Of a stretch of 64,000 nucleotides of DNA, positions 22,279 to 39,310 are shown piece after piece. This DNA comes from Arcobacter aquimarinus. GTDB taxonomy: Bacteria; Campylobacterota; Campylobacteria; Campylobacterales; Arcobacteraceae. The notes under the pieces are model-generated. The model was given only the letters and a program-made list of their open reading frames with translations, ran no database searches and was not told the origin of the DNA. The stretch's first letter is position 1. Every line of letters begins with the position of its first letter. Location: positions 62,001 through 126,000 of the forward strand of contig NZ_CP030944.1 in NCBI RefSeq assembly GCF_013177635.1, written 5' to 3'. The position numbers were made by a program, and so were the translations under genes.

Positions 22279-22287
22279 TTTAACTCA

Positions 22288-22377: not shown

Positions 22378-22437
22378 GTCGAACCCACAACCCACCGGGT
22401 CGAAACCGGTTATTCTATCCAGTTGAACTACAGACGC
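22361..22437 (-). tRNA. tRNA-Arg (anticodon UCG)
   Basis: A 77-base cloverleaf on the minus strand. The acceptor is GCGTCTG with CAGGCGT (two G-U pairs) followed by discriminator G and encoded CCA. D-stem GTTC/GAAT, anticodon stem ACCGG/CCGGT with loop TTTCGAC, and T-arm GTGGG-TTCGACT-CCTAC are all present. Anticodon TCG decodes CGA and other CGN Arg codons. The 3' end is the attachment site of the adjacent element. Confidence 0.95.
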
Positions 22438-22509: not shown

Positions 22510-23142
22510 ATGCCATATTTAGTATCCTCTATAATCGCTGTTGTAACAGCACTTATAATCTTAATGACAAGATATGAAGCTGATGATAGCGCCATAACAC
22601 AAGAGATTGAAAGAGCAAAATCTATGTTTATTACAATCGATGAATTTGCTAATACATATATTCAAAGTGGTGGGGATATGACTAAAATAAACTTTGAACA
22701 GTTATTTGACGATGGTATTTTACTTGGAAATATGACAAAAGATATACCAACATCAACTGCCAATGTAAAAGTAACAGCAGGTGCAATAGCTGATAAAAGT
22801 TTTACAGCTACTTTAGAATTTTCAAATAGTAAAATTAAATGGCAAATAGTTCCAATAGTTGAATATAAAATCAATGATTATAAAAATGTTGAGATAGATT
22901 TAGGTAAAAGTGTGGGAGCAGGGTATCAATTATTTATTGATTTTAGTAAAGAGGGTGCTCTTATGGGTAGAAATCCTTTTAGTGAAAACTTTTTAGGAAG
23001 AGAATTTTGTGAAAAAATATTTTTTGGAAGTTTTATAAATAATGCAACTTCTATTTCAAGTTCAACAGGAACCTTGAACCAAATAGTAACAACTAGTGGT
23101 ACTAGTAGTGATGGAAAAATTGCTTGTGTAGTTTTTAAATAA
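22510..23142 (+). CDS. Pilin-like protein with leaderless N-terminal helix (1)
   Basis: A 210-residue protein beginning MPYL and passing straight into a hydrophobic helix (residues 3-20), then a charged helix, as in a mature type IV pilin; no prepilin leader is visible. It is related to the next gene: both start MP[YQ]L and share an F[IV]DFSK motif (here about residue 142). Two Cys (about 168 and 207) could form a C-terminal disulfide loop. RBS AAAGGAAAAA. Separated by 166 bases from the next gene, so probably transcribed alone. The pilin role is inferred from shape and context. Confidence 0.6.
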   Translation: MPYLVSSIIAVVTALIILMTRYEADDSAITQEIERAKSMFITIDEFANTYIQSGGDMTKINFEQLFDDGILLGNMTKDIPTSTANVKVTAGAIADKSFTATLEFSNSKIKWQIVPIVEYKINDYKNVEIDLGKSVGAGYQLFIDFSKEGALMGRNPFSENFLGREFCEKIFFGSFINNATSISSSTGTLNQIVTTSGTSSDGKIACVVFK

Positions 23143-23308
23143 ATTATTTTTTACATTTTATTATTATTTATTTAAAAAAATATTGATAGATATCAAGATT
23201 TAAATAGAAATTTAAGAGTTATTTAATAGTAAAGAATATTGTTTTGTGTTAAAATAAATTGTAAAATAATCTAAATAAGATTATAAATCAAAAATAAAAG
23301 GGGTAAAT

Positions 23309-23986
23309 ATGCCACAGTTGATAGCGATGATTATCGTAGTTGTTGGAGCGATGATATATATGTTCCAAACATTTGGGGGAACTGGAGATAAGATTGAAGG
23401 TGTTGCACAAAAAGGTAGTATTATTACAGAGATTAATAACATTAAAGATGGTATTAAAATTGCTGCAAGATCTGAGCAAATAGCAACTACAGCTTCTGGA
23501 GATAGAGTTAATAATTTACAAGGTTTAGCTAAATTATCATATTTTGCAGAACAAATAAATAATCAATTAACTGATTCAAATAATAAGCAAGCAAATGTTT
23601 ATAACGCAATCTCTTTTGGTGGAGGAGTTATAACTGAAGCAACTTTAGCAAATACTAAAGGTAATATGGAAATTTCATTAGTTTCAAATAGGGCTGGTAT
23701 GATTCCAGGTATATTTGTTGATTTTTCAAAAGGAACTCTTGGTACTAATAAAGCATTTTTAGAATCACAAATTGCAAATGATTTATCAGCTGTTGCTTAT
23801 ATTGATAGACATGCCACAGCTGCATCATCTCCTGCAACTGGTGTACAAAATTCAAGTGGAACTGATTTAGAAAAAAGAACGCCAGCATATTCTACAGAAG
23901 TTACAACAGCAGGTAGTGAAACTATAAGTGATGGTAAATTTATAATTTATTTTAAAGATTTTGGTTCAAACGAAGTAGTTAAGTAA
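23309..23986 (+). CDS. Pilin-like protein with leaderless N-terminal helix (2), likely major subunit
   Basis: A 225-residue protein starting MPQLIAMIIVVVGAMIYMF, a TM helix at the extreme N-terminus, followed by an amphipathic helix and a Thr/Ala/Ser-rich globular body. It shares MP[YQ]L and FVDFSKG (about 137) with the previous protein but has no Cys. A strong RBS (AAAAGGGG), separate 5' region and dedicated hairpin terminator point to high expression, as for a major pilin. Start choice is firm because no earlier in-frame start is available. No prepilin peptidase site is seen. Confidence 0.62.
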   Translation: MPQLIAMIIVVVGAMIYMFQTFGGTGDKIEGVAQKGSIITEINNIKDGIKIAARSEQIATTASGDRVNNLQGLAKLSYFAEQINNQLTDSNNKQANVYNAISFGGGVITEATLANTKGNMEISLVSNRAGMIPGIFVDFSKGTLGTNKAFLESQIANDLSAVAYIDRHATAASSPATGVQNSSGTDLEKRTPAYSTEVTTAGSETISDGKFIIYFKDFGSNEVVK

Positions 23987-24011
23987 TATTTAGGCTTTTT
24001 GCCTAAATATT
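23985..24011 (+). terminator. Terminator/attenuator behind the major pilin-like gene
   Basis: A perfect 11-bp stem AATATTTAGGC / GCCTAAATATT with a T5 loop starts at the pilin stop codon and is followed by GTAATTTTATACTTTT. It could let the pilin be made in excess over the downstream machinery. Confidence 0.75.
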
Positions 24012-24095
24012 GTAATTTTATACTTTTAAACAAGACCTAAGTGCTAAATATCGCTAGCATTTATTTTTTGTTTTATAATTGATAAGGTTTTTTAA

Positions 24096-24800
24096 ATGTT
24101 AGGAAACATATGGCTATCTTCTGCTCTTATTGTTACAGCTATATTTTCTGTGGGTGCTATGTATAAATCTTATAGTGATATTCAAGAAGCCAAACAAATA
24201 CAAGAGCATTATGAAATAATCTCAGAAATCAAAACACTTTTAGCTAAGCAATACAATAAAAATCCACAAGATATAACAAGAGATGAAATCATATCTCACC
24301 TACCCAAAGGTGCAAATTGGGAAAAAGTTCTGTTACTTGATAGACAAAAAGATAGCAATCTTTCAAATAAAGCTTTAGTAAATCAAGATGGAAATATAGA
24401 GATAAGTGAAGATGAAAAACTAAAACTTTTAGCTTTAAAAGCTAAATTAAAAGATATACATAATACATCAACATTAAATTTAACAGCCAATAAATATATA
24501 ATTGAAATAGGACAAAAAGAGAAAAATAGTATCAAAGATGATTTAGAAGTTGAAAAAAGCATAAATATTATGATAAATGTTCTAGCTCAGGATATTTTAT
24601 ATTCGGGTCTTGATAAATCAACAGTTTTAAATACAGTAATTGAAGATTTGTTAATTAAACATGGAAATTACTATTTATTTGATGGATTAACTAAAGAAAA
24701 AAAAGAAGAATTTTTTAAAATAAAAATAAAAGAAAAACTATATAAAAATGAGTCTGCTATAGAAACAAGATTATATAAAGAATTAGAAAGTCTGTTATGA
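24096..24800 (+). CDS. Membrane-anchored pilin-like protein
   Basis: A 234-residue protein with an N-terminal TM helix (about residues 6-23, LSSALIVTAIFSVGAMY) followed by a long charged helix and a Lys/Glu-rich, mostly helical body. The element IISEIKTLLAKQYNKNPQDITRDEIISHLPKGANW echoes the helix-linker-helix opening of the exported proteins encoded downstream. It overlaps the next gene by 4 bp and opens the 15-kb run of machinery genes. Function is unknown; a minor pilin or anchor is possible. Confidence 0.5.
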   Translation: MLGNIWLSSALIVTAIFSVGAMYKSYSDIQEAKQIQEHYEIISEIKTLLAKQYNKNPQDITRDEIISHLPKGANWEKVLLLDRQKDSNLSNKALVNQDGNIEISEDEKLKLLALKAKLKDIHNTSTLNLTANKYIIEIGQKEKNSIKDDLEVEKSINIMINVLAQDILYSGLDKSTVLNTVIEDLLIKHGNYYLFDGLTKEKKEEFFKIKIKEKLYKNESAIETRLYKELESLL

Positions 24801-25528
24801 AAAAGTTATTTTTTATTTTTTTATTTTTGTCAAATATAGCATTTTCTTTGGATTTAAATAATTTTGAAGAGAGAAAAAGCGTTTTAGAGGATGTAAAAAG
24901 TATCGTTTTATATGAAGAGTCGATGGCAATTGCTTATGAAAATTATATCTTATCAAATTATTCTATTCCTAATTTAGCACAAATAAAAACTTTGATAGGT
25001 GATTTAACTACTCAAATCTCAGGAATTACAGCAACTTTAACACTAAATAATAGTGCTATTACAAAAATCTCTTACGCTTTAAATGATACGCTAGAAGCAG
25101 ACGATAGTATAAAAGCTTTGTATGAGAGCAATACTTTTAGAAAAAGAACTTATGTTAGAAATAATGAAGTCTATTTTATTTTAGAAGATGTTTTTGCAAA
25201 ACATTTGTATGATTTAATAAAAACAAATAATGGAGCACTTCAAACTTGTCCTAATTTAGTTTTTATAGCTCCAATCAATTGTATTGAAAATAATCATATT
25301 TATATAGGATTAACAAAAAAATTAGAGAATGGATTATTTGTACCAAATTCATATCTTATGGCGTATCATATAGATAAATTTAAAACAGGACCTATTATCA
25401 TAACAGATGATACTTCAAAACATATAACAGAAAATGCTTTTGATTCTATACCAAAAGGTGCTTTACTTTATGATACAAATGGAGTTAAATATTTAAAGAC
25501 ATTAGATGGAATAGAGGTTTTAAAATGA
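24797..25528 (+). CDS. Exported protein, shared pilus-locus N-terminal module (short form A)
   Basis: A 243-residue protein with a Sec signal peptide (cleaved near FS-LDL, about 18). The N-terminal module has the pattern I..(I/V)..EE.(I/M)A..Y..YIL....IP (EDVKSIVLYEESMAIAYENYILSNYSIP), shared with the proteins at 25525, 26282 and 34862. A later motif, SNTFRKRTYVRNNEVYFIL, matches the N-x-(F/Y)R-x-x-T element of the others. Two Cys in TCPNLVFIAPINC probably pair. Overlapping starts (4 bp both sides) indicate coupling. No known family recognised. Confidence 0.6.
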   Translation: MKKLFFIFLFLSNIAFSLDLNNFEERKSVLEDVKSIVLYEESMAIAYENYILSNYSIPNLAQIKTLIGDLTTQISGITATLTLNNSAITKISYALNDTLEADDSIKALYESNTFRKRTYVRNNEVYFILEDVFAKHLYDLIKTNNGALQTCPNLVFIAPINCIENNHIYIGLTKKLENGLFVPNSYLMAYHIDKFKTGPIIITDDTSKHITENAFDSIPKGALLYDTNGVKYLKTLDGIEVLK

Positions 25529-26280
25529 TAAAGTTTTTTTTATTTTTTATTTTATTATTTAATTTTTCATTTTCAAATGAGAATTTAAATGCTCAAAAAC
25601 AAAATACTTTGTATATTCATAATCTAATAGAAATAGAAGAAAAAATAGCTTCTAATTTTGAAAAATATCTTCTAACAGAATTTAAAATTCCTACAATAAA
25701 TGATTTGATAACTGATGAATATTTGGGAAGTAATTTTTCACTTTTAAATAGAATGGGAGATAATATTGATTTTGAAGATGCTTTAAAGCTTAAAATAAAG
25801 TATGCAATCAGAAAAAATGAGTTTATAAATCCACAAGATTATACAATTTTACTTTATAACAGAGATTTATACAGAGACTATACAACTGTTAATTATGAAA
25901 TTGATGAAGATAAAATTGATTTAACAAAATCTTATATTGAATTTAAATTAAAATCTGCAGAAGCAAATACGATTTATAATATTTTAGAAGCAGGAAATGT
26001 TATAGAAAAAACTTGTACAGGTACTTTGGTTAGTAAATATTGTAATAATGATAAAAACTCTATTAGGTGGTATAACGCAAGTTCTAATTGGATTGAATAC
26101 AGTAAAAAAGATTTTAATCAAGGAAATATAACTATAAGTAGTGAAAGTATTATAAGTAATGAAGTTAATAAATTGAGAGACTTAAAAGTTGGAAGTTATA
26201 TTTTCATAAAAGATAAAACAAAAAATGTAAAATTGACCGATGATACATCAGGAAATTTACAAATTTTAAAGGTTAATTGA
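25525..26280 (+). CDS. Exported protein, shared pilus-locus N-terminal module (short form B)
   Basis: A 251-residue protein with a signal peptide (about 1-17). The shared module reads IHNLIEIEEKIASNFEKYLLTEFKIPTINDLITDEYLGSNF, and NRDLYRDYTTV fits the following NxYRxxT element. A Cys pair lies in KTCTGTLVSKYCNN, and IRWYNASSNWIEYSK resembles the LHWYDASGDYKYS segment of the 777-residue protein encoded at 34862. It therefore looks like the front of the large RCC1 proteins without the propeller. Starts and stops overlap neighbours. Confidence 0.6.
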   Translation: MIKFFLFFILLFNFSFSNENLNAQKQNTLYIHNLIEIEEKIASNFEKYLLTEFKIPTINDLITDEYLGSNFSLLNRMGDNIDFEDALKLKIKYAIRKNEFINPQDYTILLYNRDLYRDYTTVNYEIDEDKIDLTKSYIEFKLKSAEANTIYNILEAGNVIEKTCTGTLVSKYCNNDKNSIRWYNASSNWIEYSKKDFNQGNITISSESIISNEVNKLRDLKVGSYIFIKDKTKNVKLTDDTSGNLQILKVN

Positions 26281-26281
26281 T

Positions 26282-29257
26282 ATGAAAATTTTTGTTTTAC
26301 TATTTATTTTTATGAATTTTGCTTTTTCTTCTAATCAAAATGTTGCACTGATGAATGACATAAAAAGTGTAATTCAAAAAGAAGAGTTTATATCTCTTTC
26401 AATAAATAAATATATTTTACAAAATGCAAAAATTCCAAAAAAAGATGATAATACACTGGATTGGGATGAACTTATGACTAGTGATTATCTAGGAACGAAT
26501 TTTAATAGATACAATCCTATGACAAAACAAAATATATCAGTTATTTTTGATTCAAATAATAGTGCTTTTATAAAAGGGGTTTTTGAAGCTGAAAATCAAC
26601 ATAAATCTGAATATAACTATTTATATAACTTTTATATAAATAAGATTTTTAGAGTAAATACAATTCCTCCAAAAAATAATACAAAAACAGAACTGCTAAA
26701 AGGTTCTTTAGTTTTATATAACTCAATTCAAAATGAAATAGTAAAAGTTATAAATAGAAATACAAATAAAATATTTTTACCTACTCAAACTTGTGAAGTT
26801 GGAAACTATTATTATGAATTAAAAAATGAAAAATTGATATATAAATATTGTAAAACAACTACATCTTCTATCGAAGTCTATCAAGAATCACCAATTTATT
26901 TGGATAATTTAGATGATTTAAAATATATAAAAGTTGAAATTGGTGAAAAAGCTTATGTTAAAGATGGTATTTCTTGGTATGAGTATTATTATGAAGGAAA
27001 TGGCTCTTGGATTCCTTTGGGAACAGGAAGAACAACGGGACAAGTAAATGATGAGATAAGTATAGAAGATAGGATTTTATCATATATTCCTGATGCTAAA
27101 GACTTAGTTTTAAGACGTGATGGTGGTTGTATGCTTGCAAATGGAGATATCTTTTGTTGGGGGAATAATAGTTATAAAAAAGCTGGTATTGAGAACTATG
27201 GACAACTAGATAAAACTATAAAACCTGATTATGTAAATACACCTGTGATGTTGAAAGTTCAAATAGAAGATACAGAACAAAATGAAATGAAATGGTATAA
27301 CAATCCATATAGAGTAAAATTTGAAAAAATGGCTATGAATAGTACAAATGTTTGTGGAATTTCTCCTATATTTAACTATTTTGATAATGGTCAAAAGAAA
27401 TTTGGAGGAGATTTGTACTGTAATGGTCAAATAACTCAATTATATTACGAAAATGTACCTACTTCAGTTAGTGAAACTTCAATTCTTGGAAAAAATAAAT
27501 TTTTTGGATGGGGTAAAAGTGATAAAACAGATGATGCACCTAAGTTGATAAAAATATCAGAAGATGGAGGACCTGTAGAAAAGGATTCATTAAAAGAAGA
27601 ACTAACTATTACAAGGGATGAAATTTATTTAACACAAATAGTAATGGTAGAAGATACGATAGCTGTATTATCTGATGATGGGAAAATATATACTATTGGA
27701 CGAAATTATAATGGTGCTTTAGGAGTTGGAGATAGTGATAAATTTATTATTCAATCAACACCTCAAGAAGTTAAAAGTAATGGGGTTTCTTTTAAAAAAA
27801 TATTTGCTTTAAGAGATATTGCAACTTTTGGAGCAATCGATAGTAATAACTATTTTTATATTTGGGGGGAAAGACCAAATGGAACAGTTTATTATGAACC
27901 TACAATTGTAAGTAATTCATTAAAATTTAATCCAGATGGTATTTTTACAAATAGTAAAGATTTTCTTTTAAAAGGTGTAGATAATAATTTTTATAGAACA
28001 AAAAATAGTATTGATTTAGTATCTGTTCCACAGATACCAAATACAGCAATAAGTGCTTCTATTTATGATAGTGGTATTACTCAATTATATGTTTACGCAA
28101 ATGAAAATATGGTTTTAGAAGGAAGTAGTAGATATTTAAGTTGTAAAACTACAACAGGTTCAAATTGCAATAATACAGATAATGCTATATTTGAAACAGG
28201 ATTAAATGAATTAAATGCTATTACAAATAGATTTAATGGAAAAGATTATGCAAATTTTGCAAATGTATCTATTTACCAGTTAGATACTGTCAAAACTGAA
28301 AAATTTGATGATTTTGAAAATGGAGTTAGTACTTGGGAGTTAAAAACATATAGTGATACTCAGTTTAAAAATCTTAAAAAAACAGAAACACCTTCTATTT
28401 TAACTGCAACAGAGAGTTCAGCAGATACAGTAAATTCAAGAATTACAGAAAGAGTTAACCCAACAAAAATAATAGCTGGGCAAATTCGTAATTCTAAATA
28501 TTATGGTGTTCAACTGGGATATCAAGCTTTAGAAAAAACTTTTAGTTTTGGTAGCCAGTATGCAAATGATGAAGTTGAGTTAGAGTTTGATTTTTATGAG
28601 ATTGATACTTGGGATATGGAAAGGTTTCAAGTTTTATTAAATGACCAATTAATATCAGAAGATGGTTTTATTCATGATTGTCATGACCAGTTTACTGAAA
28701 CTAACGATACTGGAATTTATACGTTAAGTTTAGGAAAACATTATAAAGATGATAAAAGAGTATGTAATGATCAGAATTCAAGTTTATATAATTTAGCATA
28801 TTCAAGATTTGATGATGAAAAATATATCTATAAGCTAAAAGGTAAATTAGATAGTAGTGGAAACTTAAAAGTTGTATTTAGAGTGAGAAATTTGACTTCG
28901 GGAGAGTATGGTTGGACAAGTTATTCTTATGGACAAACAATTGATGATGAATCTTGGGCAATTGATAATGTGCGTGTAAAGGTAAAAGAGACAAGTAAAA
29001 CTTTTGTTTGTGCAATGACTGGAATTGGAAGCTTGTCTCAAATGTATTGCTGGGGGAATGTAGGACGTAGTATACCTATTTTAAGTACATCTTTATATGA
29101 TGTTGGTAAAATATCTACTATTAATAAGTTATTTATATCTCCCAAAAGTGATAAGACAAGTCAAATGGCTTTTGATAACTTTAATGATTCAGGAAATCTA
29201 TTTTTAAAATATCCCACTTATATTGGTGGTTTTGATTATCCATTTTATTTTAAATAA
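26282..29257 (+). CDS. Large exported RCC1-repeat protein (991 aa)
   Basis: The signal peptide (about 1-16) is followed by the shared module (IKSVIQKEEFISLSINKYILQNAKIP, then DYLGTNFNRYNPM). RCC1-like repeats come next: CMLANGDIFCWGNN (about 282), DLYCNGQ (about 380), AVLSDDGKIYTIGRNYNGALGVGD (about 460) and NNYFYIWGE (about 520). A beta-sandwich-like insert spans about 675-905 (FDFYEIDTWDMERFQVLLNDQ ... ESWAIDNVRV). Another RCC1 blade, QMYCWGN, and the C-terminal motif KYPTYIGGFDYPFYFK follow. It looks like a surface adhesin or pilus-tip protein; the function is not known. Confidence 0.65.
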   Translation: MKIFVLLFIFMNFAFSSNQNVALMNDIKSVIQKEEFISLSINKYILQNAKIPKKDDNTLDWDELMTSDYLGTNFNRYNPMTKQNISVIFDSNNSAFIKGVFEAENQHKSEYNYLYNFYINKIFRVNTIPPKNNTKTELLKGSLVLYNSIQNEIVKVINRNTNKIFLPTQTCEVGNYYYELKNEKLIYKYCKTTTSSIEVYQESPIYLDNLDDLKYIKVEIGEKAYVKDGISWYEYYYEGNGSWIPLGTGRTTGQVNDEISIEDRILSYIPDAKDLVLRRDGGCMLANGDIFCWGNNSYKKAGIENYGQLDKTIKPDYVNTPVMLKVQIEDTEQNEMKWYNNPYRVKFEKMAMNSTNVCGISPIFNYFDNGQKKFGGDLYCNGQITQLYYENVPTSVSETSILGKNKFFGWGKSDKTDDAPKLIKISEDGGPVEKDSLKEELTITRDEIYLTQIVMVEDTIAVLSDDGKIYTIGRNYNGALGVGDSDKFIIQSTPQEVKSNGVSFKKIFALRDIATFGAIDSNNYFYIWGERPNGTVYYEPTIVSNSLKFNPDGIFTNSKDFLLKGVDNNFYRTKNSIDLVSVPQIPNTAISASIYDSGITQLYVYANENMVLEGSSRYLSCKTTTGSNCNNTDNAIFETGLNELNAITNRFNGKDYANFANVSIYQLDTVKTEKFDDFENGVSTWELKTYSDTQFKNLKKTETPSILTATESSADTVNSRITERVNPTKIIAGQIRNSKYYGVQLGYQALEKTFSFGSQYANDEVELEFDFYEIDTWDMERFQVLLNDQLISEDGFIHDCHDQFTETNDTGIYTLSLGKHYKDDKRVCNDQNSSLYNLAYSRFDDEKYIYKLKGKLDSSGNLKVVFRVRNLTSGEYGWTSYSYGQTIDDESWAIDNVRVKVKETSKTFVCAMTGIGSLSQMYCWGNVGRSIPILSTSLYDVGKISTINKLFISPKSDKTSQMAFDNFNDSGNLFLKYPTYIGGFDYPFYFK

Positions 29258-29265
29258 GGAATTGT

Positions 29266-30927: not shown

Positions 30928-30929
30928 CA

Positions 30930-31946
30930 ATGAGTATGTTTTCTGACCCATACGAACAGTTTTTACTTGATTATCTTGTAACAAAACTAGAAAATGGTTC
31001 AAATACAAGAAGAGCATTGTTACTTTATAGTGAACAAATCACAAGAGAAACAAATTTTAAAAAAAGATTGATGGCTGCGATTAAGGATATGGAAATAGGG
31101 AAACATAAGCTAGAAGCAATCTTACATAAGCATAAATTTTTAAATAGTTTTCAGTTTAGTTTAGTTGTAAATAGTACAAACACAATAGATGGATTGAAAC
31201 TTGTATTATCTTTCAAAAAAGCAAATTCAAATTTACTTATGAAAATGCTAAATCCTATATTTGTTCCCATGATTATTATTGTAGGAACATTTTATGGTTT
31301 GATTTTATATTTGGATATGCTTCAAAAAGAGTTAGTTCAATTAAGAAAACTAAATCCTGATGTTGAACAATTTTTAGGAATACCTAAATATTTTACCTAT
31401 GATATTGCGTATATTGGTTTAGGTGTTTCTATATTTGTAACTTTATTTATTTTATTTGGATATATCTACACTGAAAAATATAAACCTGCATGGCTTTATA
31501 AGGTTTTTAAAACACAAGCTTATTCAGATGGTAGATTTATGTTTAGAATTTTAAATGGAATGTTAAGTGCTGGAATTTCATTTCATAAGACTTCTTTAAT
31601 TTTATCAAAAGATTATTTTAAAGTAGGATTTAGACCATTTTTTAAAGATTTAGCAGATATGATAAATAAGAATAAAAAACTTTTTATTATGTTTGAAAGA
31701 TATAACTTTCCACCTATTATAACAGCTGATATAAAACTTTCAGAACTTAGTAAAACAAGTTTTTCAGAAGTTACAAAAGCTTTATATCAAACTTGCGATA
31801 CTATGTATGAAAAAAATATAAATTATATGGTTTTGCAGTGGAGATTTATGTTTTGGATGATTGCCATGTTGGTTACTGTTATTATTGGTTCAGATGTTAT
31901 AAATCTGGTAATTAGTACATTTACTTTTAAAACTTTATATCAGTAG
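30930..31946 (+). CDS. GspF/PilC-like inner-membrane platform protein
   Basis: A 338-residue membrane protein. Two cytoplasmic helical GspF-type domains (about 1-95 and 190-285; second one with LNGMLSAGISFHKTSLIL) are separated by TM helices near 108-130 and 155-180, with a last TM at about 308-330. This is the short T4bP (BfpE/TcpE/PilR) version of the platform that transmits ATPase motion to the pilin pool. It starts two bases after the secretin stop. Confidence 0.82.
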   Translation: MSMFSDPYEQFLLDYLVTKLENGSNTRRALLLYSEQITRETNFKKRLMAAIKDMEIGKHKLEAILHKHKFLNSFQFSLVVNSTNTIDGLKLVLSFKKANSNLLMKMLNPIFVPMIIIVGTFYGLILYLDMLQKELVQLRKLNPDVEQFLGIPKYFTYDIAYIGLGVSIFVTLFILFGYIYTEKYKPAWLYKVFKTQAYSDGRFMFRILNGMLSAGISFHKTSLILSKDYFKVGFRPFFKDLADMINKNKKLFIMFERYNFPPIITADIKLSELSKTSFSEVTKALYQTCDTMYEKNINYMVLQWRFMFWMIAMLVTVIIGSDVINLVISTFTFKTLYQ

Positions 31947-31954
31947 AAGAAAAA

Positions 31955-33640
31955 ATGATAAAAAAAATAGTTTCAACTCTAAAAAATGTACCGAAAATTA
32001 GCTTTTTAAATAAAGATAAAAAATTACATAAAAAAGAAAAATCTGAAAAAATAGATTTTAAAAAAATTATAGAAAAACAAAAACATTCTTTTCTTGAATT
32101 TATAGGAAAAACTGAAGATACTGATACTCATTTATCTCATATAATTGAAGATATGATTAAAGATAAATTTCAATTAAAAGGTGGTTATGGAGATTTGATT
32201 GCGAATGAAGCAAAATATGCAGAGTTTGTAAGAAGTCTAGGATATGAATATTATGCAACTTATAGTGATTTATCAAAATATTATCAGGATACTTCTTTTC
32301 AATTAGATGAAAAAAAACTTGAATTTTGTACAACTATGTATATTATCACTTTAGAAGATAAAAAGAGTAAAAATAAAGTTTTAGGTATTAGAGATGTTGT
32401 AAATCTTGATTTTGAAATATTAAGTAAGTTCTATTTTACAAAAATAGTAGTTTTAGGGGAAGGAGTTTTATCATCTGTTTTTGGAGAAGATAGGGAGATT
32501 ATTTTTAGTTCAAATAGTGATACTGAAAATGATGAAGAGATAAATAAATATTTTGACAAAATGATGGGACAAGCAATTTTGCTTGGAGCGTCTGATATAC
32601 ATATTCAAAAAACAAGTAGATATGCATCCCTTTGGTTTAGAATTGATGGTATCAAAGTTGATATGGGAACAATGCCTATTACTATTGCAAAAACTTTAAA
32701 AAGAAGACTTGTAACTATGGCTGACCAAGAAGATTCTGATTATGAGTCAATTAATGGGGTTATAAATTATGAATATGGTAAAAAAAATATCAAGTTTAGG
32801 CTTGGACTTATAAACTCAAAGTTAAATTTTTCATTAGTAATGAGGATGATTGGTGGAAGAGGAGTTGTTTCACATAATTTATCAGGACTTAATTATCCAG
32901 AAGAGACAATTAGAATTTTATCTAATTTAACAAAATATGCAAATGGGATGATATTAATTACAGGGCAAGTTGGAAGTGGTAAAACACATTTAATGTATGC
33001 CTTATTACAACAACTTGCAAAACAACAACAATATGTTATTACTATTGAAGATCCAGTTGAGTATGTGGATGAATCTTTCTTCCAAATTGATTTATCAGAG
33101 TTTGCAAGTGCAAGTGAAGAGTTTAAATATGGTTATCCTGAAGCAGTTGTTGATATTTTAAGACAAGATTCAAATATCATTCTAATTGGGGAAACAAGAG
33201 AGCCTCAAACAGCATCACAACTTGTTAATGCTTCTAACTTAGGTCAGTTAGTATTCTCAACTATGCATACAAACTCTGCTCCTGCAACAGTTTCAAGGAT
33301 GACAAGTTCACTTGGAATTAATGAAGGGGATATTATTGATAACTTAAGAGGAATAGTATCTCAAAGATTAGTTAGAAAACTTTGTACATATTGTAAAGAA
33401 CCAGATGGTGAAAGTGGATTTAAAAAAATTGGTTGTGATGAGTGTAATCACACAGGATTTAAAGATAGGGTACCAATTGCTGAGGTAGTTAGATTTAAAT
33501 TAGGACATGGAGGAGATTTTGAAAATCCAGCTGAATATATGACGGTTGAAAAAGCAGCGATGGCTCAATATCATGCAGGATTTATAACAAAAGAGGATGC
33601 AACAGCTATTATTAGAGGGGAAGAAGTATGGTACGATTAG
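31955..33640 (+). CDS. GspE/PilB-type secretion ATPase
   Basis: A 561-residue hexameric ATPase. Walker A is GQVGSGKTH (about 336-344); the Asp box is TIEDPVEYV, Walker B NIILIGETREPQTA (about 406-419; canonical GEIRDxETA is altered) and the His box STMHTNSA. Two CxxC motifs (CTYC about 477, CDEC about 493) form the zinc site of assembly ATPases. The N-terminal 190 residues are divergent, Lys-rich at first. Presence of the zinc motif argues for an assembly rather than retraction motor. No PilT-like partner is in the window. Confidence 0.9.
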   Translation: MIKKIVSTLKNVPKISFLNKDKKLHKKEKSEKIDFKKIIEKQKHSFLEFIGKTEDTDTHLSHIIEDMIKDKFQLKGGYGDLIANEAKYAEFVRSLGYEYYATYSDLSKYYQDTSFQLDEKKLEFCTTMYIITLEDKKSKNKVLGIRDVVNLDFEILSKFYFTKIVVLGEGVLSSVFGEDREIIFSSNSDTENDEEINKYFDKMMGQAILLGASDIHIQKTSRYASLWFRIDGIKVDMGTMPITIAKTLKRRLVTMADQEDSDYESINGVINYEYGKKNIKFRLGLINSKLNFSLVMRMIGGRGVVSHNLSGLNYPEETIRILSNLTKYANGMILITGQVGSGKTHLMYALLQQLAKQQQYVITIEDPVEYVDESFFQIDLSEFASASEEFKYGYPEAVVDILRQDSNIILIGETREPQTASQLVNASNLGQLVFSTMHTNSAPATVSRMTSSLGINEGDIIDNLRGIVSQRLVRKLCTYCKEPDGESGFKKIGCDECNHTGFKDRVPIAEVVRFKLGHGGDFENPAEYMTVEKAAMAQYHAGFITKEDATAIIRGEEVWYD

Positions 33641-34377
33641 TAATAACTGATTTTGCTACTAAAGAAGATAGCGAATTTTTCTATATACGAGATGAATTTG
33701 ACATTTCTCAAAATATGTTTACTTATCATTCTTTCAAAAAATATAGTGTTTATTTATCAAAATATACAAATGATGATATTTATTCTTTAAATTTACTATC
33801 GAGAAAATATCTAAAGAAAAATCAATTTTTGATTCATATTGCAGATGGTGAATATGTAATTTTATTTAATCATAAAACAGTCTATTCAGCAAAAATAAAT
33901 CAAAATTTCATCACAGATGATATGATTAAATCAATTTTAATTACAAAACATATAGCAATGCTTTCAAGTGGTGGAAGTATTGATAGTATTTATTATGTAA
34001 TTAACTCAAAATTTAAACATGCTATAGAAAATATTTTAAAACAAAATACAAAAAATGAAAAACAAGAAGTTGTTGCAAAATCTTTAGGAGAAATTGAAGA
34101 GTTAGTAAAACCTTTAAAATCTTTAGATACTTCAAAATCTCATTTTACAAAATTATTTTATATTACTTCCTTGACAACAGTTAGTTTATGGTTTGTTTTT
34201 ATGGGATTAGAAACTTTTACAAATAAAATATTTTACACAGAACCTCTTGAAAATTTAACAAAAGAGATAGAAATCGAAAAGCAATTAGCAAAACGACAAC
34301 AAATTATTTTAAATACAAATGAAAAAAAATATAAAGAATTAACAGATTGTATTTCAATAAATGAGGATTTTAGATGA
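33628..34377 (+). CDS. PilM/PilN- or GspL-like bitopic assembly protein
   Basis: A 249-residue protein with a cytoplasmic alpha/beta domain (about 1-170), one TM helix (about 183-203, LFYITSLTTVSLWFVFMGLE) and a short periplasmic coiled coil (about 212-240). Its architecture and place between ATPase and PilO-like gene match GspL or a PilM/N-equivalent (T4bP BfpC/TcpD type) that links the ATPase to the periplasmic frame. The start overlaps the ATPase gene by 13 bp and the stop overlaps the next by 4. Sequence identity to named families is too low to assert. Confidence 0.6.
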   Translation: MVRLVITDFATKEDSEFFYIRDEFDISQNMFTYHSFKKYSVYLSKYTNDDIYSLNLLSRKYLKKNQFLIHIADGEYVILFNHKTVYSAKINQNFITDDMIKSILITKHIAMLSSGGSIDSIYYVINSKFKHAIENILKQNTKNEKQEVVAKSLGEIEELVKPLKSLDTSKSHFTKLFYITSLTTVSLWFVFMGLETFTNKIFYTEPLENLTKEIEIEKQLAKRQQIILNTNEKKYKELTDCISINEDFR

Positions 34378-34865
34378 TAAGTATTCATCCAAAATTAGTT
34401 TCTAAAATAACTAAATTAGTTTTAATAGGATTAGCTATTTATACTATGTTGTTTATTTTATTTAAAGCTATTAGTTATTTTCAATCAGTAAAACAAAAAG
34501 AGAACTTAGTAAGAGATATTCAGATTCAAAAAGAACAGACCGATATCTTGAAAAATAGGGTTAATGAGGTTAAAAAAAAGATAGAAAATCTTGAAAAGGT
34601 ATATATTCAAAAAGAAGAATTAGAGGTTAAGATAAAAGATATATTTCAAAGAATGTCTTTTATTGATTTTCAGTTAAATTATATCGATGCAAGAAAAATG
34701 TGTGTTGATAGATATATTATTGTTGCAAGAGCAGATTATCAAAGTGAAAAAGGTTTAAAAGCTGTAGAGGGTATTTTATCTTATTTGGGTGAAATTAAAA
34801 AAAGTGAAAATGATGAAAACCTATATTTTGTGAATTACATAGCAAAACCAAGGCAAATACAATGA
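34374..34865 (+). CDS. PilO/GspM-like alignment protein
   Basis: A 163-residue protein with one N-terminal TM helix (about 11-32), a coiled coil (about 38-85, KQKENLVRDIQIQKEQTDILKNRVNEVKKKIENLEK) and a C-terminal alpha/beta domain that may be ferredoxin-like. This is the PilO/GspM layout. Four-base overlaps on both sides show tight coupling to the PilM/N-like gene and to the large exported protein that follows. Assignment is by architecture and position. Confidence 0.62.
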   Translation: MISIHPKLVSKITKLVLIGLAIYTMLFILFKAISYFQSVKQKENLVRDIQIQKEQTDILKNRVNEVKKKIENLEKVYIQKEELEVKIKDIFQRMSFIDFQLNYIDARKMCVDRYIIVARADYQSEKGLKAVEGILSYLGEIKKSENDENLYFVNYIAKPRQIQ

Positions 34866-37195
34866 AAAAAATTTTATTTTTTTATGTACTATTTTTTTCA
34901 ATATCTATTTTTGCAGATAATTATGTAGATTCAATTACTTTAACAAAGATAAAAAAACTTGTTCAAAAAGAAGAAGAAATAGCTCTTGCATATAAAAAAT
35001 ATATTTTAGAAAAAGGGGTAAATCCTACAACTCTAAATGATTTAAAAACAGCAAATTATTTACCAAAAGGATTTGACATAATAAATCCTTTTGCTAAGCA
35101 AATTACTATTATTCTTGATAATAACTCAACAATTACTGATAAAAAAGATGATATACATAAAATTAGAGGTTTTGAATCAACAGATCCTAAATTAAAATCA
35201 AATTTATATGATTATTATTATTCAAATAAATATAGAATTTATACAAAAGCACCTTTAAGTATAAACAATAGTAACGTTGAAATAATTTTAAGTACAAAAG
35301 AAAAATTTATATATGAAAACAGCTCAAAAATCACAATAACTGCTCCAGATAATTCTTCAAAAACTCCTAAAGATAGTTATTATTTAGATGAAAATGGAGT
35401 TTTACATTGGTATGATGCTTCTGGAGATTATAAATACTCTTTTGATAAAGAGTTAGTTCTTGATGAAAGTGTTACTTTGTTTGATGATAATGGAATTGTA
35501 ACTGAAGAGTATAAAGATTTAGTAAGAAATATAGAATTTGCAGGAATGACTATATTATACGAAAAAAATGAAGTTGCAGAAGAACATGTAAATATTGGTT
35601 CAGGTAGTGTTATAAAAGTAAATCAACAAACAAGAGATATAGGAAAAACAGTTATTCAGTTTACAAGAAGAGCAGGTGGGATGATTGTAAATGGAGATAT
35701 ATATACTTGGGGAAATAATGCTAATAAAATAACTGGAATTGATTTAGGATATTCAGGAAGCACAGATTCTTATCGTTACCCTGTTGTTACAGGTCTTGTT
35801 AGGGCAAAAGCAAAAATGTATGATGATGACTCAACAGATGAAAAAGATTTTACAAAATATTATGATCAAAATTATTTTTCTTCACCAAATAGACCTAAAT
35901 TTGTAGATTTTTTTAGTGCAGTTTTCTATGGAACTTGTGGAGTTTCTACAAAAGGTGAGTTGTATTGTGGGGGAACAACTGGATTAAATTATTCTTTTGG
36001 AAATAATTTTACACATGTGGATACAAATAGAAAAGGTGAGATGCTTTATAGAAGTACTTTTTTTGATGGTAAAACAAATAAAGCAAAAAAAGTTTTTGCA
36101 AATAATCAAATTTGGCATATTTTAGGAGATGATAATTTCATATATTCTTGGGGATATGATGGAAGTGCTTTCTCGGGAAATGGTAATTTATCTTTTAATT
36201 CAGAAATATGTGAAACAATTTGTACAAGATATGATAGATGGGGAAGATGTACTTCCTCTTATCAAGAATGTTCAAATGAACCTAGAAATGTATCTAACAT
36301 AAAGTTTTCTGATATAACATACCTTTTAACTATTGGACATAGAAAAATTGGAGGATTATCAACTACAGGAGATATTTATATTTGGGGAAGAGAATATTAT
36401 AAGGATAATTCTTCAACTTCTTTTGAAACATACGATTGTAGTAATAATTGGCAAAGCACAAATTTTAATTTATGTACACCTATAAAAGTTGAAACTTCAA
36501 ATTCTACTATGACTACAACTTTGAAATTTGAGTCAATTCAAGGTGGGTTAGATGCTTTTGTAGCAAAAAGTGAAGATGGAAAATATTTTAAAATATCTCA
36601 TCCCAAAACAAAAAAAATTCAAGTTACTTCAATAGATGATGCTATAGAATCATATTCTGAGTATGTAGCAGAAAATGATGCTGAAATATTATCTGTAGAT
36701 TTTTCAAGAAAAGTAAATGAACAAGGACTAAGTAAAAGATACATCCCAAGTTCAGGAATAGTTTGGGTAAATAGCAAAAATGAATTGAAAGGAGATTATC
36801 TTTCTTCTTCTCTTACTACTGAAGATATTACAATATTTAGAAATGCAATAAGACAGATAAAATGGAAAAAAATAAAAGTAATTGATGATGATAATGGAAT
36901 GTGTGGAATAGATATAAATAATCAGATGTATTGTTGGGGAATTCAGTCATTTTACAGAAATGGTAATTCTTATAGTGATTTTATGGGAAATACATTTATG
37001 ATACCAGTTTTTAATACAAATTTATATGATTTAGAAAAAGATTTCTTAATAGCAGAAGGTGGATATAATGGGTATCTTACAAATATGACATCAGATGAAT
37101 GGGCAACAACGAATAGTGATGGAAAAACAGGTGCATTCTTTATGAAATATCCTACATATATTGGTGGATTTAACTATGAATTTATATTTAAATAG
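34862..37195 (+). CDS. Large exported RCC1-repeat protein (777 aa)
   Basis: Second large exported protein. The signal peptide (about 1-18) is followed by the shared module (IKKLVQKEEEIALAYKKYILEKGVNP ... TANYLPKGFDIINPF, then NKYRIYTKAP). At least five RCC1-like blades follow: GGMIVNGDIYTWGNN (about 272), GVSTKGELYCGG (about 360), WHILGDDNFIYSWGYD (about 418), GGLSTTGDIYIWGRE (about 497) and CGIDINNQMYCWG (about 680). It ends in KYPTYIGGFNYEFIFK, nearly the same as the 991-residue protein but without its beta-sandwich insert. Embedded between PilO- and PilP-like genes, it is probably a structural or cargo part of the machine. Confidence 0.68.
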   Translation: MKKILFFYVLFFSISIFADNYVDSITLTKIKKLVQKEEEIALAYKKYILEKGVNPTTLNDLKTANYLPKGFDIINPFAKQITIILDNNSTITDKKDDIHKIRGFESTDPKLKSNLYDYYYSNKYRIYTKAPLSINNSNVEIILSTKEKFIYENSSKITITAPDNSSKTPKDSYYLDENGVLHWYDASGDYKYSFDKELVLDESVTLFDDNGIVTEEYKDLVRNIEFAGMTILYEKNEVAEEHVNIGSGSVIKVNQQTRDIGKTVIQFTRRAGGMIVNGDIYTWGNNANKITGIDLGYSGSTDSYRYPVVTGLVRAKAKMYDDDSTDEKDFTKYYDQNYFSSPNRPKFVDFFSAVFYGTCGVSTKGELYCGGTTGLNYSFGNNFTHVDTNRKGEMLYRSTFFDGKTNKAKKVFANNQIWHILGDDNFIYSWGYDGSAFSGNGNLSFNSEICETICTRYDRWGRCTSSYQECSNEPRNVSNIKFSDITYLLTIGHRKIGGLSTTGDIYIWGREYYKDNSSTSFETYDCSNNWQSTNFNLCTPIKVETSNSTMTTTLKFESIQGGLDAFVAKSEDGKYFKISHPKTKKIQVTSIDDAIESYSEYVAENDAEILSVDFSRKVNEQGLSKRYIPSSGIVWVNSKNELKGDYLSSSLTTEDITIFRNAIRQIKWKKIKVIDDDNGMCGIDINNQMYCWGIQSFYRNGNSYSDFMGNTFMIPVFNTNLYDLEKDFLIAEGGYNGYLTNMTSDEWATTNSDGKTGAFFMKYPTYIGGFNYEFIFK

Positions 37196-37214
37196 AATTT
37201 AAAAAAGGGAAGAG

Positions 37215-38228
37215 ATGAAAAAAATAAGTTTGATTTTATTGGGAATTTTTACAACATTTAATCTTTATGCTCAAGAGCAAGTATCTCAAGAGATGAAAAA
37301 TATGGATAAATTAGATGTTTTAGATAGACAATCCAAAGATTTTTTCAATGCAATAACTGGACTTGAAAAAGATTATTTAGAAGAACAAGTAAATGCTATA
37401 AAAAATAAAAAAATGGAGAATCCATCAAACCCAAATCAACCACAAGTGATTGTACCTCAAGAAGCAACGTTATCGCAAGAAGATTATGAAAAAAATGTTT
37501 TTACTCACCAAAATGAAATGGCAAGACTTACAACTGATTTTACAAGAACAAAAAAATTAAAAGATTTAAAAATCAAAAGTATGTACTCTTTTAATGGAAA
37601 AGATTATGCTGTTTTGGAATTAATAGATGAAACAACTACATCAAATAATAGTGGAGTTAAAACAGAATTAAGTGCAAATATAGAGGGAAGATATATTGAA
37701 GGTGATAATATTTTAGGGCATAAGATAATAGATATTAATACTAGAACAAAAAGTATAGAACTTTATAAAAAACTTGATGAAGAGTATGGATATACAATAT
37801 ATTTAAGTAATTATGGAATTTCTGTTAGTGATTTAAAAAAGATAGAAAAAGTAAATGAGAAAACAGAATCAAAAAAAGAAGAATCAAAAATAATACCTAG
37901 TTCTCAAAATAAAGTAAAAGATGTTTTTAATCAAGTATCTGAAAAAGAGGTAAAAGTAGAAAAAGTAAAAACAGATATTTCAAATTGTTTATACACAGTT
38001 AGAAAAGAAAAATTAAATGTAAGAAATAAACCTGATTTAGAAGGTAGAATTTTAAGAGTCTTAAAAATAAATGACCAATTTACAATAAATAAAAAAGAAA
38101 AAGATTGGGTTCAAATAGATACTATTTATAAAAAAATTTCTGGAGATGTAATGGTTGTTTCAAAAGAAAATAATTGGGTTCAAATAGTTGATGGAAATGT
38201 GACTTCTCCAAATAATGAGTGTAAATAG
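37215..38228 (+). CDS. PilP/GspC-like periplasmic protein with SH3-like C-terminus
   Basis: A 337-residue protein with a signal peptide (about 1-19), a helical segment, a Pro/Gln linker (NPSNPNQPQVIVPQ) and a beta domain (about 115-205). In that domain SMYSFNGKDYAVLELID...IEGRYIEGDNILGHKIIDIN...IELYK resembles the HR domain of PilP/GspC that docks to the secretin. A Lys/Glu linker leads to an SH3b-like region (about 258-337, LNVRNKPDLEGRILRVL... WVQI), where WVQI occurs twice. SH3b domains often bind peptidoglycan. Separate from the previous gene by 19 bases with RBS AAGGGAAG. Confidence 0.62.
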   Translation: MKKISLILLGIFTTFNLYAQEQVSQEMKNMDKLDVLDRQSKDFFNAITGLEKDYLEEQVNAIKNKKMENPSNPNQPQVIVPQEATLSQEDYEKNVFTHQNEMARLTTDFTRTKKLKDLKIKSMYSFNGKDYAVLELIDETTTSNNSGVKTELSANIEGRYIEGDNILGHKIIDINTRTKSIELYKKLDEEYGYTIYLSNYGISVSDLKKIEKVNEKTESKKEESKIIPSSQNKVKDVFNQVSEKEVKVEKVKTDISNCLYTVRKEKLNVRNKPDLEGRILRVLKINDQFTINKKEKDWVQIDTIYKKISGDVMVVSKENNWVQIVDGNVTSPNNECK

Positions 38229-38236
38229 GATAAAAA

Positions 38237-39310
38237 TTGGAAAATCAAAAAGATTATAAATCATCTATTTCGAATGATATAAATAAAATTATTAATGAAA
38301 CAGAGATATTAATAAACAAATATAATAAATTTTTTAATATTGAAGAGATTTTTTCTAGTGAAAATGGTGGTAAAACTAGATTAAATAGACAAATATTCAA
38401 TGAAAATCATGAAGAAATACAAGCTTCTATTTTGGAAATTGGATTATGTTTAGATGAAATTAAAGGTTATATCTCTGAAGAGATAAAGATGATATTATCA
38501 AAATATAATCTTTTTGACAAAATAGAACTTACCGATTTGATTTTTGATGATAGAAACTTTTTAGAGCTTTTATTTTTAGATTTAGAAACACATGGTATAA
38601 AAGGTGAAATAAGAGTAAGATGTTTAAATGATGTAAATGAACTATTAAGTCTAAAGAATAAAATTTTTAATTTAAAATATTTTGTAGATATGTTTAATAC
38701 TTCAATTTTTGATAAATACCTAAATAGATTAGGAGTTGAAGATTTAATTAATAGCACAATTATCTTTGAAACTATTGACTCTTATGGTTTACAATTTGAA
38801 GAGTTATTAAAATTTTCTAAAGAGATAAAAACTTTAGAACCACAAAATGAAAAAGTTACTAATTTAAATAGCTTAACTTCACTTTTAGAATTACATAAAC
38901 GAAGAGCTGATAATTATCATTATGCAAGTATTAGATATAAAATTTTTGTTGAATATAATTGTGATATTTTGTCTAAAACTATGTATATAAATAAGGCTTA
39001 TCTAGAAAATATAATCTCTTCTTTGATGGAACAATCATATATGGATTTAGTAAAAAAAGAGTTGAAAAAAGGAAAAATACAAAAACAAGTTGATGTAAAT
39101 GTATCTATAGTTAAAAACACTCTCCAAATAAGTGTGAAAAATAATGGATTTGAGTCAAGAAATATACAAAGTTTGTATAGTGCAGATATTGACAATAGAT
39201 ATATTCTAGAAGCAAAAAACTTAGCTACTGTTATAAATGCAAAATTTGATATTCAAACATTAGATAATGAAGGTATGTTATATACTTTAAGTGTAAAATT
39301 AAAAGCTTAA
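38237..39310 (+). CDS. Cytoplasmic protein with GHKL-ATPase-like C-terminus
   Basis: A 357-residue soluble, helical protein with no signal peptide. It starts with TTG (RBS AGGAT). The C-terminal 100 residues resemble a histidine-kinase ATPase fold: an N-box-like helix (AYLENIISSLMEQSYMDL), strands VDVNVSIVKNTLQISVKNNG and a terminal ATVINAKFDIQTLDNEGMLYTLSVKL. The Asn and Gly signatures of N-, G1- and G2-boxes are poor, so ATP binding is doubtful. No receiver or phospho-His motif is evident. As the last gene of the pilus-like locus it may regulate it; this is speculative. Confidence 0.5.
   Translation: MENQKDYKSSISNDINKIINETEILINKYNKFFNIEEIFSSENGGKTRLNRQIFNENHEEIQASILEIGLCLDEIKGYISEEIKMILSKYNLFDKIELTDLIFDDRNFLELLFLDLETHGIKGEIRVRCLNDVNELLSLKNKIFNLKYFVDMFNTSIFDKYLNRLGVEDLINSTIIFETIDSYGLQFEELLKFSKEIKTLEPQNEKVTNLNSLTSLLELHKRRADNYHYASIRYKIFVEYNCDILSKTMYINKAYLENIISSLMEQSYMDLVKKELKKGKIQKQVDVNVSIVKNTLQISVKNNGFESRNIQSLYSADIDNRYILEAKNLATVINAKFDIQTLDNEGMLYTLSVKLKA

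Follow-up and report, generated by a model that had tools for sequence, protein, structure and literature searches.

What kind of machine is encoded by a cluster that combines an assembly ATPase, a platform and a secretin with pilin-like proteins that appear to lack a prepilin leader, and with two large proteins of the RCC1 type? Removal of the leader by prepilin peptidase is usually regarded as a defining step of type IV filaments. Positions 22510-39310 of the window (the whole stretch of DNA analysed, 64,000 nucleotides) hold 14 plus-strand open reading frames in the program-made list, one more than the 13 genes counted in the preliminary description. The lengths given there for the two large proteins (991 and 777 residues) were correct, while its statement that the genes mostly overlap was too strong, as overlaps of 4-13 bases occur at 5 of the 13 junctions, gaps of 1-19 bases at 6, and gaps of 109 and 166 bases at the remaining 2. 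The cluster (g1-g14) is nonetheless operon-like, and the same gene order is found again in many genomes, which rules out chance. The computed gene set is as follows:

22510..23142, plus strand: g1, apparently leaderless pilin-like protein, 210 aa, start MPYLVSSIIAVV; predicted fold type IVb-pilin-like
23309..23986, plus strand: g2, apparently leaderless pilin-like protein, 225 aa, start MPQLIAMIIVVVG; homologue of g1
24096..24800, plus strand: g3, 234 aa, possible minor pilin; hydrophobic N-terminal stretch, without leader
24797..25528, plus strand: g4, 243 aa, exported (Sec-type signal by eye); N-terminal domain common to g5, g6 and g12
25525..26280, plus strand: g5, 251 aa, exported (by eye); N-terminal domain common to g4, g6 and g12
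26282..29257, plus strand: g6, 991 aa, exported (by eye); shared N-terminal domain, RCC1 repeats, C-terminal KYPTYIGGF-type motif
29266..30927, plus strand: g7, putative lipoprotein secretin, distantly MshL-like
30930..31946, plus strand: g8, GspF-like inner-membrane platform (weak match)
31955..33640, plus strand: g9, assembly ATPase of the GspE/PilB type; CxxC..CxxC invariant
33628..34377, plus strand: g10, PilM/N position, one hydrophobic segment; label from order and topology only
34374..34865, plus strand: g11, PilO position, hydrophobic segment and coiled-coil-like stretch; label from order and topology only
34862..37195, plus strand: g12, 777 aa, exported (by eye); shared N-terminal domain, predicted RCC1-fold propeller at about 259-700, conserved C-terminus
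37215..38228, plus strand: g13, PilP position, exported (by eye), bacterial SH3 domain
38237..39310, plus strand: g14, conserved, 357 aa, TTG start in the longest reading frame; degenerate histidine-kinase-ATPase look, by eye only

Pfam gave no match over cut-off for g3, and a PDB profile search gave none of relevance for g14. Directly upstream of the cluster lies a 3.7-kb mobile element with an integrase, bounded by a perfect 22-nt direct repeat (18620-18641 and 22356-22377) that overlaps the end of a tRNA-Arg gene. The cluster was considered as part of this element and rejected, as the element stops before g1; its integrase and Rep-like protein had no match in the 26 relative loci searched. 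On the other side, purT follows the cluster, as here, in 18 of the 26 loci (some genomes are in this set twice).

We favour, with a probability of roughly 0.56, a type IVb-pilus-like machine of the Arcobacteraceae whose product is an adhesion pilus that does not retract and has propellers as its adhesins. A type IVb-like adhesion or secretion device with built-in RCC1 propellers had been proposed before, and this is supported as the most likely reading. In the mechanism that we propose, the pilin-like g1 and g2, made already in mature form without a prepilin leader, would leave through the g7 secretin, driven by the ATPase g9 and the platform g8, with the machine aligned by g10, g11 and the SH3-bearing g13. 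The related exported proteins g4, g5, g6 and g12 would make up a complex that sits at the tip or primes assembly, and within it the RCC1 proteins g6 and g12 would act as ligand-binding adhesins. Between strains, the propellers would diversify, while the parts fitting the machine, namely the N-terminal domain and the C-terminal motif, would change less.

The GspE ATPase with a zinc motif of the preliminary description is borne out by g9, which matches PF00437 (GspE) in Pfam at E 3e-65 and, in PDB profile searches, GspE 4pht (E 4.1e-45) and PilB 3jc8 (E 1.1e-43); all four zinc-motif cysteines are invariant in 16 of 16 aligned sequences. Against the NCBIfam models it scores 196.5 bits for GspE, 192.8 for PilB and 197.8 for TfpB, in each case under the equivalog cut-off (630, 676 and 850 bits, respectively). 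This equal match to GspE would also suit a machine for type II-like secretion whose pseudopilus is short and for which the RCC1 proteins would be soluble cargo, a reading that we regard as unlikely. The other labels proposed for the core held in part. A GspF platform is recognisable for g8 in Pfam, but very weakly and below the cut-off (PF00482, E 0.045), with no detection at E 0.001 in the genome scan and no PDB match. The lipoprotein character of g7 is consistent with a lipobox-like LSGC, read directly at its start, and of the NCBIfam models it matches, up to E 1, MshL alone (E 1.5e-9), but at 37.3 bits against an equivalog cut-off of 250.2, and a PDB profile search returned no secretin among its matches. 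The PilM/N, PilO and PilP labels agree with order and topology, but found no profile support in Pfam (g10, g11 and g13) or the PDB (g10 and g13) apart from the SH3 domain of g13.

As had been noted, the cluster contains no prepilin peptidase or retraction-ATPase gene. Across the genome, there is one Peptidase_A24 gene, outside the cluster, and the PilT family TIGR01420 gave 3 matches, 0 over the 319-bit cut-off; the top scores among them, 171 and 137 bits, belong to a 453-residue GspE and g9. A genome without a retraction ATPase over the cut-off, and an ATPase, platform and secretin of the same superfamily, would be compatible with a competence pilus for DNA uptake that is akin to Campylobacter cts, as suggested earlier. 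However, this link is very improbable because likely ctsE and pilG homologues are found elsewhere in the genome, and the cluster is missing from 12 of the 24 other genomes of the genus. The 453-residue GspE is adjacent to a 397-residue GspF about 1.7 Mb from the cluster, and the pair likely represents ctsE and pilG, matched by length and order to the A. butzleri homologues, which have 453 and 396 residues in the accessible part of the source (PMC8308473).

We infer that g1 and g2 form the filament. Both appear to lack the class III leader that prepilin peptidase removes, an observation that is new here and was missed previously, because a Shine-Dalgarno tetramer precedes the start codon in 19 of 19 g1 and 21 of 21 g2 genes (40/40), a signal found at 8% of random places in the window, and an in-frame ATG, GTG or TTG lies upstream of the start in 1 of the 40, with none in the other 39. 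In all 40 examined, the start codon opens the helix. The count left out the g2 of L038, whose start is lost at a contig end, and the g1 of L044 and L048 is absent from the data, as these stretches stop within 0.5 kb of g2. Wrong start annotation is rejected by the same analysis as an explanation for the missing leaders. A 'KIKG' upstream of g2 was likewise rejected as a leader; it is the translated Shine-Dalgarno region with no start codon before it, and in 8 of 21 g2 orthologues a stop occurs within 5 codons. In addition, Glu5 is missing from g1 and g2, and in none of the 13 carriers does PF07963 (N_methyl) match within the cluster.

The two proteins are homologous to each other (hhalign E 1e-6). 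The g1 model, with a middling pLDDT of 65.9, has a first helix at 3-52 and strands after it, and its best structural match is the type IVb pilin PilS (3fhu; rmsd 4.3, 125 aligned), at a Z of 6.7 that is under the tool's safe level; unrelated chains get up to Z 4.1. The next matches are a T2SS pseudopilus chain (Z 4.5) and FimA (Z 4.0, with residue 1 on FimA residue 1), and Foldseek with this model gave no match at E 0.001. Against the classical prepilins of sister machines, hhalign gave E 0.19 for g2, and E 2.4e-4 for g1 or, with another alignment, 0.045, which is no better than controls since the best of 10 control families reached 0.049. Leaderless pilins, on which nothing relevant was found in the open-access literature among the matches listed, are the most surprising part of the locus.

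The lack of Glu5 could also point to g1 and g2 being anchored inner-membrane parts, with a classical prepilin encoded elsewhere as the true major pilin. The genome has one prepilin peptidase and, outside the cluster, two N_methyl-type open frames (146 and 141 residues), and G023 and G009 each have a classical N_methyl gene 4.8 kb past g14. What makes this reading rather improbable is that N_methyl genes do not track the cluster, since all 13 genomes that carry it have them and so do 9 of 10 that lack it (a count that left out G005 and G017), and that none lies inside the cluster, nor within it in the neighbourhoods fetched for the 11 other carriers. Moreover, the prepilins of the sister machines L079 and L080 adjoin the secretin, and only g1 and g2 can fill that role here.

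The adhesion pilus that we prefer would carry its propellers at the tip. Both large proteins are of the RCC1 type, as first described, g6 by Pfam and g12 by predicted fold. RCC1 (PF00415) is matched by g6 at E 6.8e-8 (33.4 bits against a Pfam cut-off of 21.7) and nowhere else in the genome; the RCC1-like match of g12 (E 9.4e-9) is under Pfam cut-offs. The g12 model begins with a long helix (2-51), and is predicted to carry an RCC1-type propeller, with matches to UVR8 (6xzn; Z 15.8, rmsd 4.1, 290 aligned), RCC1 (1i2m; Z 15.2), HERC2 (Foldseek E 1.4e-10) and CV39L, a bacterial lectin propeller (Z 13.3). New here, and overlooked before, is an N-terminal domain in common among the 991-, 777-, 251- and 243-residue proteins (g6, g12, g5 and g4), with a best cross-family E of 6e-10 to 4e-30 over 92 sequences, obtained with HMMs that took in signal peptides, which can raise scores. 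A tip minor-pilin role for these proteins is a guess, because searches of the PDB and Pfam with the domain gave no real match, and its comparison with g1 and g2 gave nothing significant (E 0.28 and 0.48). At the other end, all 43 orthologues (21/21 g6 and 22/22 g12) retain a C-terminal motif in a loose form composed after viewing the sequences; with a stricter first version, the counts are 10 of 21 g6 and 17 of 22 g12.

For a secretion machine, this motif common to g6 and g12 could be the secretion signal, and both proteins resemble Sec-exported soluble proteins. Export of this kind is known from certain type IVb pili, with TcpF or CofJ as the cargo. However, the N-terminal domain of g6 and g12 is also present in the propeller-free g4 and g5, and so looks structural rather than like a cargo tag, and the accessible part of one report holds an adhesion precedent for RCC1 propellers on a pilus (PMC12206443). 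We thus retain adhesion as the probable function. Tentatively, the filament may consist of pilins made mature (no leader, no Glu5), its assembly needing no prepilin peptidase, with a tip of four Sec-exported proteins that share one adaptor domain, two of them bearing exchangeable RCC1 adhesins.

The cluster with both propellers is present in 12 of the 24 other genomes of the genus and absent from 12, and is also found in further Arcobacteraceae genera. The possibility that relatives would lack the RCC1 genes, raised in the preliminary description, is contradicted by their presence as a pair in 12 of 12 same-genus loci and in six further family loci (L085-L090), and by two large proteins with RCC1-like matches (E 1.3e-49 and 3.5e-37) in the divergent G368 locus; the L034 contig starts within the secretin, which places the g6 position outside the sequence. 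Among 397 genomes of the class, 13 match the secretin at full strength; precisely these 13 match g12 at full strength as well, and all of them also have g6. Weak RCC1 matches in other families (seven genomes) had no pilus gene beside them in the four stretches read. Where the cluster is lacking, UbiA and purT are spaced by 1.1 (G001), 2.4 (G006), 5.3 (G021) and 6.0 kb (G010), or lie on different contigs (G008), and the other genomes without it gave no close purT match. G019 has a split GspE and G009 a split GspF, and the machine is therefore dispensable in some strains.

In 10 close pairs, identity is 83-98% for g7-g9, 57-92% for g6 and 49-89% for g12. The propellers, like the pilins, thus appear to diverge faster than the ATPase-platform-secretin core, a contrast between conserved core and divergent exported proteins that is new here and had been overlooked. 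Judging from the same pairs, fast divergence does not seem peculiar to the propellers, as g1 (51-87%), g2 (49-72%), g4 (54-88%) and g11 (56-88%) vary equally. Between the window and L050, g7-g9 are 94-97% identical and g12 73% overall, with 70-94% in its first six 50-residue blocks, 22-75% in the propeller blocks and 93% in the last block. Orthologues were best BLAST matches, taken from the longest reading frame, with L034 and L038 cut by contig ends; alignment A1 has 17 rows and A7 has 69 of 85 sequences.

A machine with ATPase, platform and secretin but leaderless pilin-like proteins would show that the cleavage step is dispensable, and together with sister machines that keep the leader it would provide a natural experiment on the entry of pilins into the membrane and their exit from it. 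The propeller proteins are a likely surface- or host-recognition factor in the Arcobacteraceae, and g6 and g12 would be the second example of a pilus with RCC1 propellers, after that of Saccharibacteria.

Several known systems share parts of this design. The R64/Salmonella type IVb pilus contributes PilS, the best structural match of g1 (Z 6.7), and its thin pilus has a lipoprotein secretin; in contrast, the cluster here has no peptidase gene and its pilins appear to have no leader. The MSHA pilus is linked through the weak MshL match of g7, but differs in that g7 remains far under the MshL cut-off (37 versus 250 bits) and the cluster has no N_methyl prepilin. Sister machines in Campylobacterota are L079 and L080, whose secretin, GspE and GspF were matched by BLAST, and L102, found via the L080 secretin (E 6.8e-52). 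These have prepilins beside the secretin, with N_methyl above cut-off in L079, just below it in L080, and undetected in L102, where the protein is prepilin-like by eye. A 275-aa exported protein of L080 weakly matches 3 of the 4 N-domain HMMs (E 3e-4 to 5e-3), the other L079 and L080 exported proteins tried gave no match to them, and no RCC1 protein was noticed in the stretches read, nor did Pfam match the one large L079 protein searched. RCC1, type IV pili and a secretin were not found together in the open-access literature. In PilY1/PilC of T4aP a propeller also serves pilus adhesion, the type here being RCC1; PilY1 has a hepta-bladed propeller, as stated in the accessible part of PMC12206443. 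That RCC1 propellers are foreign to type IV pili, as implied earlier, is not supported, since the same source describes PilX2 of the TM7x (Saccharibacteria) T4P-2 as a minor pilin bearing an RCC1 propeller of seven blades. As far as that source was available, PilX2 has no predicted PilD signal peptide and is proposed as the adhesin, its loss lowering host binding from 10.6% to 4.6%, while TM7x pilins have PilD signal peptides and PilB and PilT are T4aP-like (PMC12206443). PilX2 resembles g6 and g12 as the RCC1 propeller protein of a pilus-like machine. The g12 model combines a propeller with an opening helix (2-51), but its N-terminal domain has no significant pilin match. By the description available for TM7x, the machine here is set apart as T4b-like, with a secretin, two Sec-signal propeller proteins and pilins that are apparently leaderless.

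The stretch 22510-39310 of the window holds 14 ORFs, all on the plus strand (g1-g14). In Pfam, the g9 ATPase matches PF00437 (E 3e-65), g6 carries RCC1 repeats over the cut-off (PF00415, E 6.8e-8) and g13 has an SH3 domain (E 1.5e-7), while the RCC1-like match of g12 is sub-threshold (E 9.4e-9) and the GspF match of g8 is marginal (E 0.045). Among NCBIfam models, the g7 secretin is a distant match to MshL (E 1.5e-9, 37 bits against a cut-off of 250), and g9 lies nearly equidistant from TfpB, GspE and PilB, far under all three cut-offs. The preliminary description reported neither a prepilin peptidase nor a retraction ATPase, and this stands: the cluster contains no prepilin peptidase, the one Peptidase_A24 gene of the genome (G000:C1:2336427-2336780) lying outside it, and a genome search gave no PilT-family match over cut-off. 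The last gene is as follows:

38237-39310, plus strand: g14, the operon's final gene in main-type loci whose stretch extends far enough.

By eye, the C-terminal part of g14 resembles a degenerate histidine-kinase ATPase, with no confirming search match.

Of the 24 other genomes of the genus that were searched with g9, 12 hold a close relative (76-98% identity); none of 16 genomes from other families does. This survey of the ATPase neighbourhood, proposed in the preliminary description, found the same gene order in the stretches from those 12 genomes and the RCC1 genes not absent but both present in 12 of 12 same-genus loci; g1 was unseen in two of these, whose stretch stops 0.5 kb or less from g2. 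The named loci (n = 8) include Aliarcobacter MAGs, Arcobacter vandammei and Poseidonibacter lekithochrous. Across the class, full-strength matches to the secretin (E below 1e-260) and to g12 (E below 1e-240) occur in the same 13 of 397 genomes, all belonging to the window's family and with g6 in each locus. In one further genome of the family, G368, the cluster is divergent and altered in order, with two large proteins bearing strong RCC1 repeats. The distance between UbiA and purT is 20.7 kb in the window's genome; in four genomes that lack the cluster it is 1.1, 2.4, 5.3 and 6.0 kb, and this short spacing indicates a preferred site, whose flanks almost meet when the cluster is missing. Of 26 loci searched, 18 have purT downstream; others, such as L045-L049, do not.

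Several further features of these loci were observed. In genome G009, the GspF gene is split by a transposase gene (IS256-like by eye) inserted inside it (L048:10666-11868), and in G019 the ATPase gene is spread over two reading frames (L050:10061-11702) and is thus either broken or mis-sequenced. Upstream of the cluster in the window is a 3.7-kb integrated element (18620-22377) flanked by a perfect direct repeat of 22 nt; one of the copies overlaps tRNA-Arg (22361-22437, minus strand) at its 3′ end. The genes of the element are replication-initiator-like (by eye), HTH (excisionase-like) and tyrosine integrase. In four loci of relatives (L033, L043, L085 and L088), tRNA-Arg instead lies on the plus strand, immediately ahead of g1.

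The pilin-like proteins g1 and g2 open M-P/A/G-x-hydrophobic straight at the helix, with TTG as start codon in g1 of L039 and L040. A Shine-Dalgarno tetramer, found at 8% of random places, lies 5-16 bases upstream in 19/19 g1 and 21/21 g2 orthologues. Excluding the g2 of L038, whose start is cut off, only one of 40 g1/g2 genes has an in-frame upstream start (L085 g1, TTG), and an upstream stop lies within five codons in 13 of 40. In the similar g3, 18 of 21 also have the tetramer. Within the cluster there is no PF07963 match; elsewhere in the genome, open frames of N_methyl type (96-183 residues) occur in 13/13 carriers and 9/10 non-carriers tested (G005 and G017 were outside this survey). In two carriers, an N_methyl-type gene (145-aa open frame) lies 4.8 kb past g14 (G023:C1:1107841-1107906; G009:C1:743027-743092), which is a point against leaderless pilins.

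Profile comparison by hhalign shows g1 and g2 to be homologous (E 1e-6). The g1 model (pLDDT 65.9) has a first helix of 50 residues, its top match is the type IVb pilin PilS at Z 6.7, where unrelated chains get up to Z 4.1, and residue 1 aligns on residue 1 of FimA. Foldseek alone gave nothing significant for this model, and profile comparison with classical prepilins gave an unstable link (E 2.4e-4, then 0.045 against controls of 0.049-0.7). Together, the start-site, structure-model and profile results yield a graded verdict: the predicted lack of a leader is well supported by sequence, the identification as pilins is moderately supported, and a role as filament subunits is what we infer.

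For g12, a model from 17 orthologues (mean pLDDT 69.7) places an RCC1 propeller at about residues 259-700, with structural matches to UVR8 (Z 15.8), RCC1 (Z 15.2) and the bacterial lectin CV39L (Z 13.3). The best Foldseek match is HERC2 (E 1.4e-10), and a profile search of PDB sequences is concordant (HERC2, E 7.8e-9). HMMs from the first 200 residues of g4, g5, g6 and g12, signal peptides included, detect each other (best E 6e-10 to 4e-30; 92 sequences), indicating that all four exported proteins, two of them small and two large, have an N-terminal domain in common, to which neither Pfam nor the PDB offers a convincing match. Both large proteins end in a KYPTYIGGF-type motif (21/21 g6, 22/22 g12), a pattern composed after inspecting these sequences.

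In comparisons of 10 close pairs, identity is 83-98% for the secretin, platform and ATPase, against 57-92% for g6 and 49-89% for g12. Between L031 and L032 the three machine proteins are 89, 95 and 96% identical, g6 60% and g12 49%. Compared with L050, its nearest relative, the window has 94% identity in the secretin, 97% in GspF, 92% in g6 and 73% in g12. By block, g12 in the latter pair is 70-94% identical in the first six, 22-75% in the propeller and 93% in the last, a sequence pattern that fits a surface module undergoing exchange. L048 and L049 retain g12 at 89%. g1 (51-87%), g2 (49-72%), g4 (54-88%) and g11 (56-88%) are as divergent as g6 and g12, so rapid change is typical of exported and filament parts generally, not of propellers alone.

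The nearest described relative in function is PilX2 of TM7x (Saccharibacteria). This minor pilin, which is not predicted to bear a PilD signal, has an RCC1 propeller of seven blades, and its deletion cuts host binding by more than half (PMC12206443). This analogy and the divergence contrast favour an adhesion pilus over the main rival, in which the propellers would be exported as cargo. We put at roughly 0.56 the probability of a type IVb-like, non-retracting adhesion pilus with leaderless g1 and g2 and a tip complex in which g6 and g12 would be propeller adhesins. The odds of this reading, and of the more far-reaching one that follows, are slightly lowered by the divergence not being propeller-specific and by the N_methyl gene that two genomes have close to the cluster. 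More tentatively, and at somewhat less than even odds, the filament may be peptidase-independent as well as leaderless, with a four-protein Sec-exported tip, two of whose members carry exchangeable RCC1 adhesins. A competence machine, raised earlier as a possible relation to the Campylobacter cts set, is unlikely, given probable ctsE and pilG homologues elsewhere in the genome, matched by length and order to those in PMC8308473.

The open-access literature searched yielded no paper joining RCC1, type IV pili and a secretin, and no description of the cluster was found in work on Arcobacter pili or RCC1 and Campylobacterota pilin propellers, including the accessible parts of PMC11870540 and PMC8308473. 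The machine is real, conserved, of the type IV filament kind and not found described in that literature; its propellers are less unique than the preliminary description held, with a precedent in PilX2. The missing leaders are more unusual than the RCC1 part. In the sister machines L079 and L080 of other Campylobacterota, leader-bearing prepilins lie beside the secretins, whereas g1 and g2 are without leaders; a prepilin-looking gene is also seen by eye beside the secretin of L102. By eye, the L079 cluster includes histidine-kinase-like and response-regulator-like genes, and a large repeat protein is encoded next to that of L080. According to PMC11870540, pilMNOPQ is the order common to all the type IV pilus clusters that its authors identified in Campylobacterota; the window's cluster departs from it, its secretin preceding the platform, the ATPase and g10-g13.
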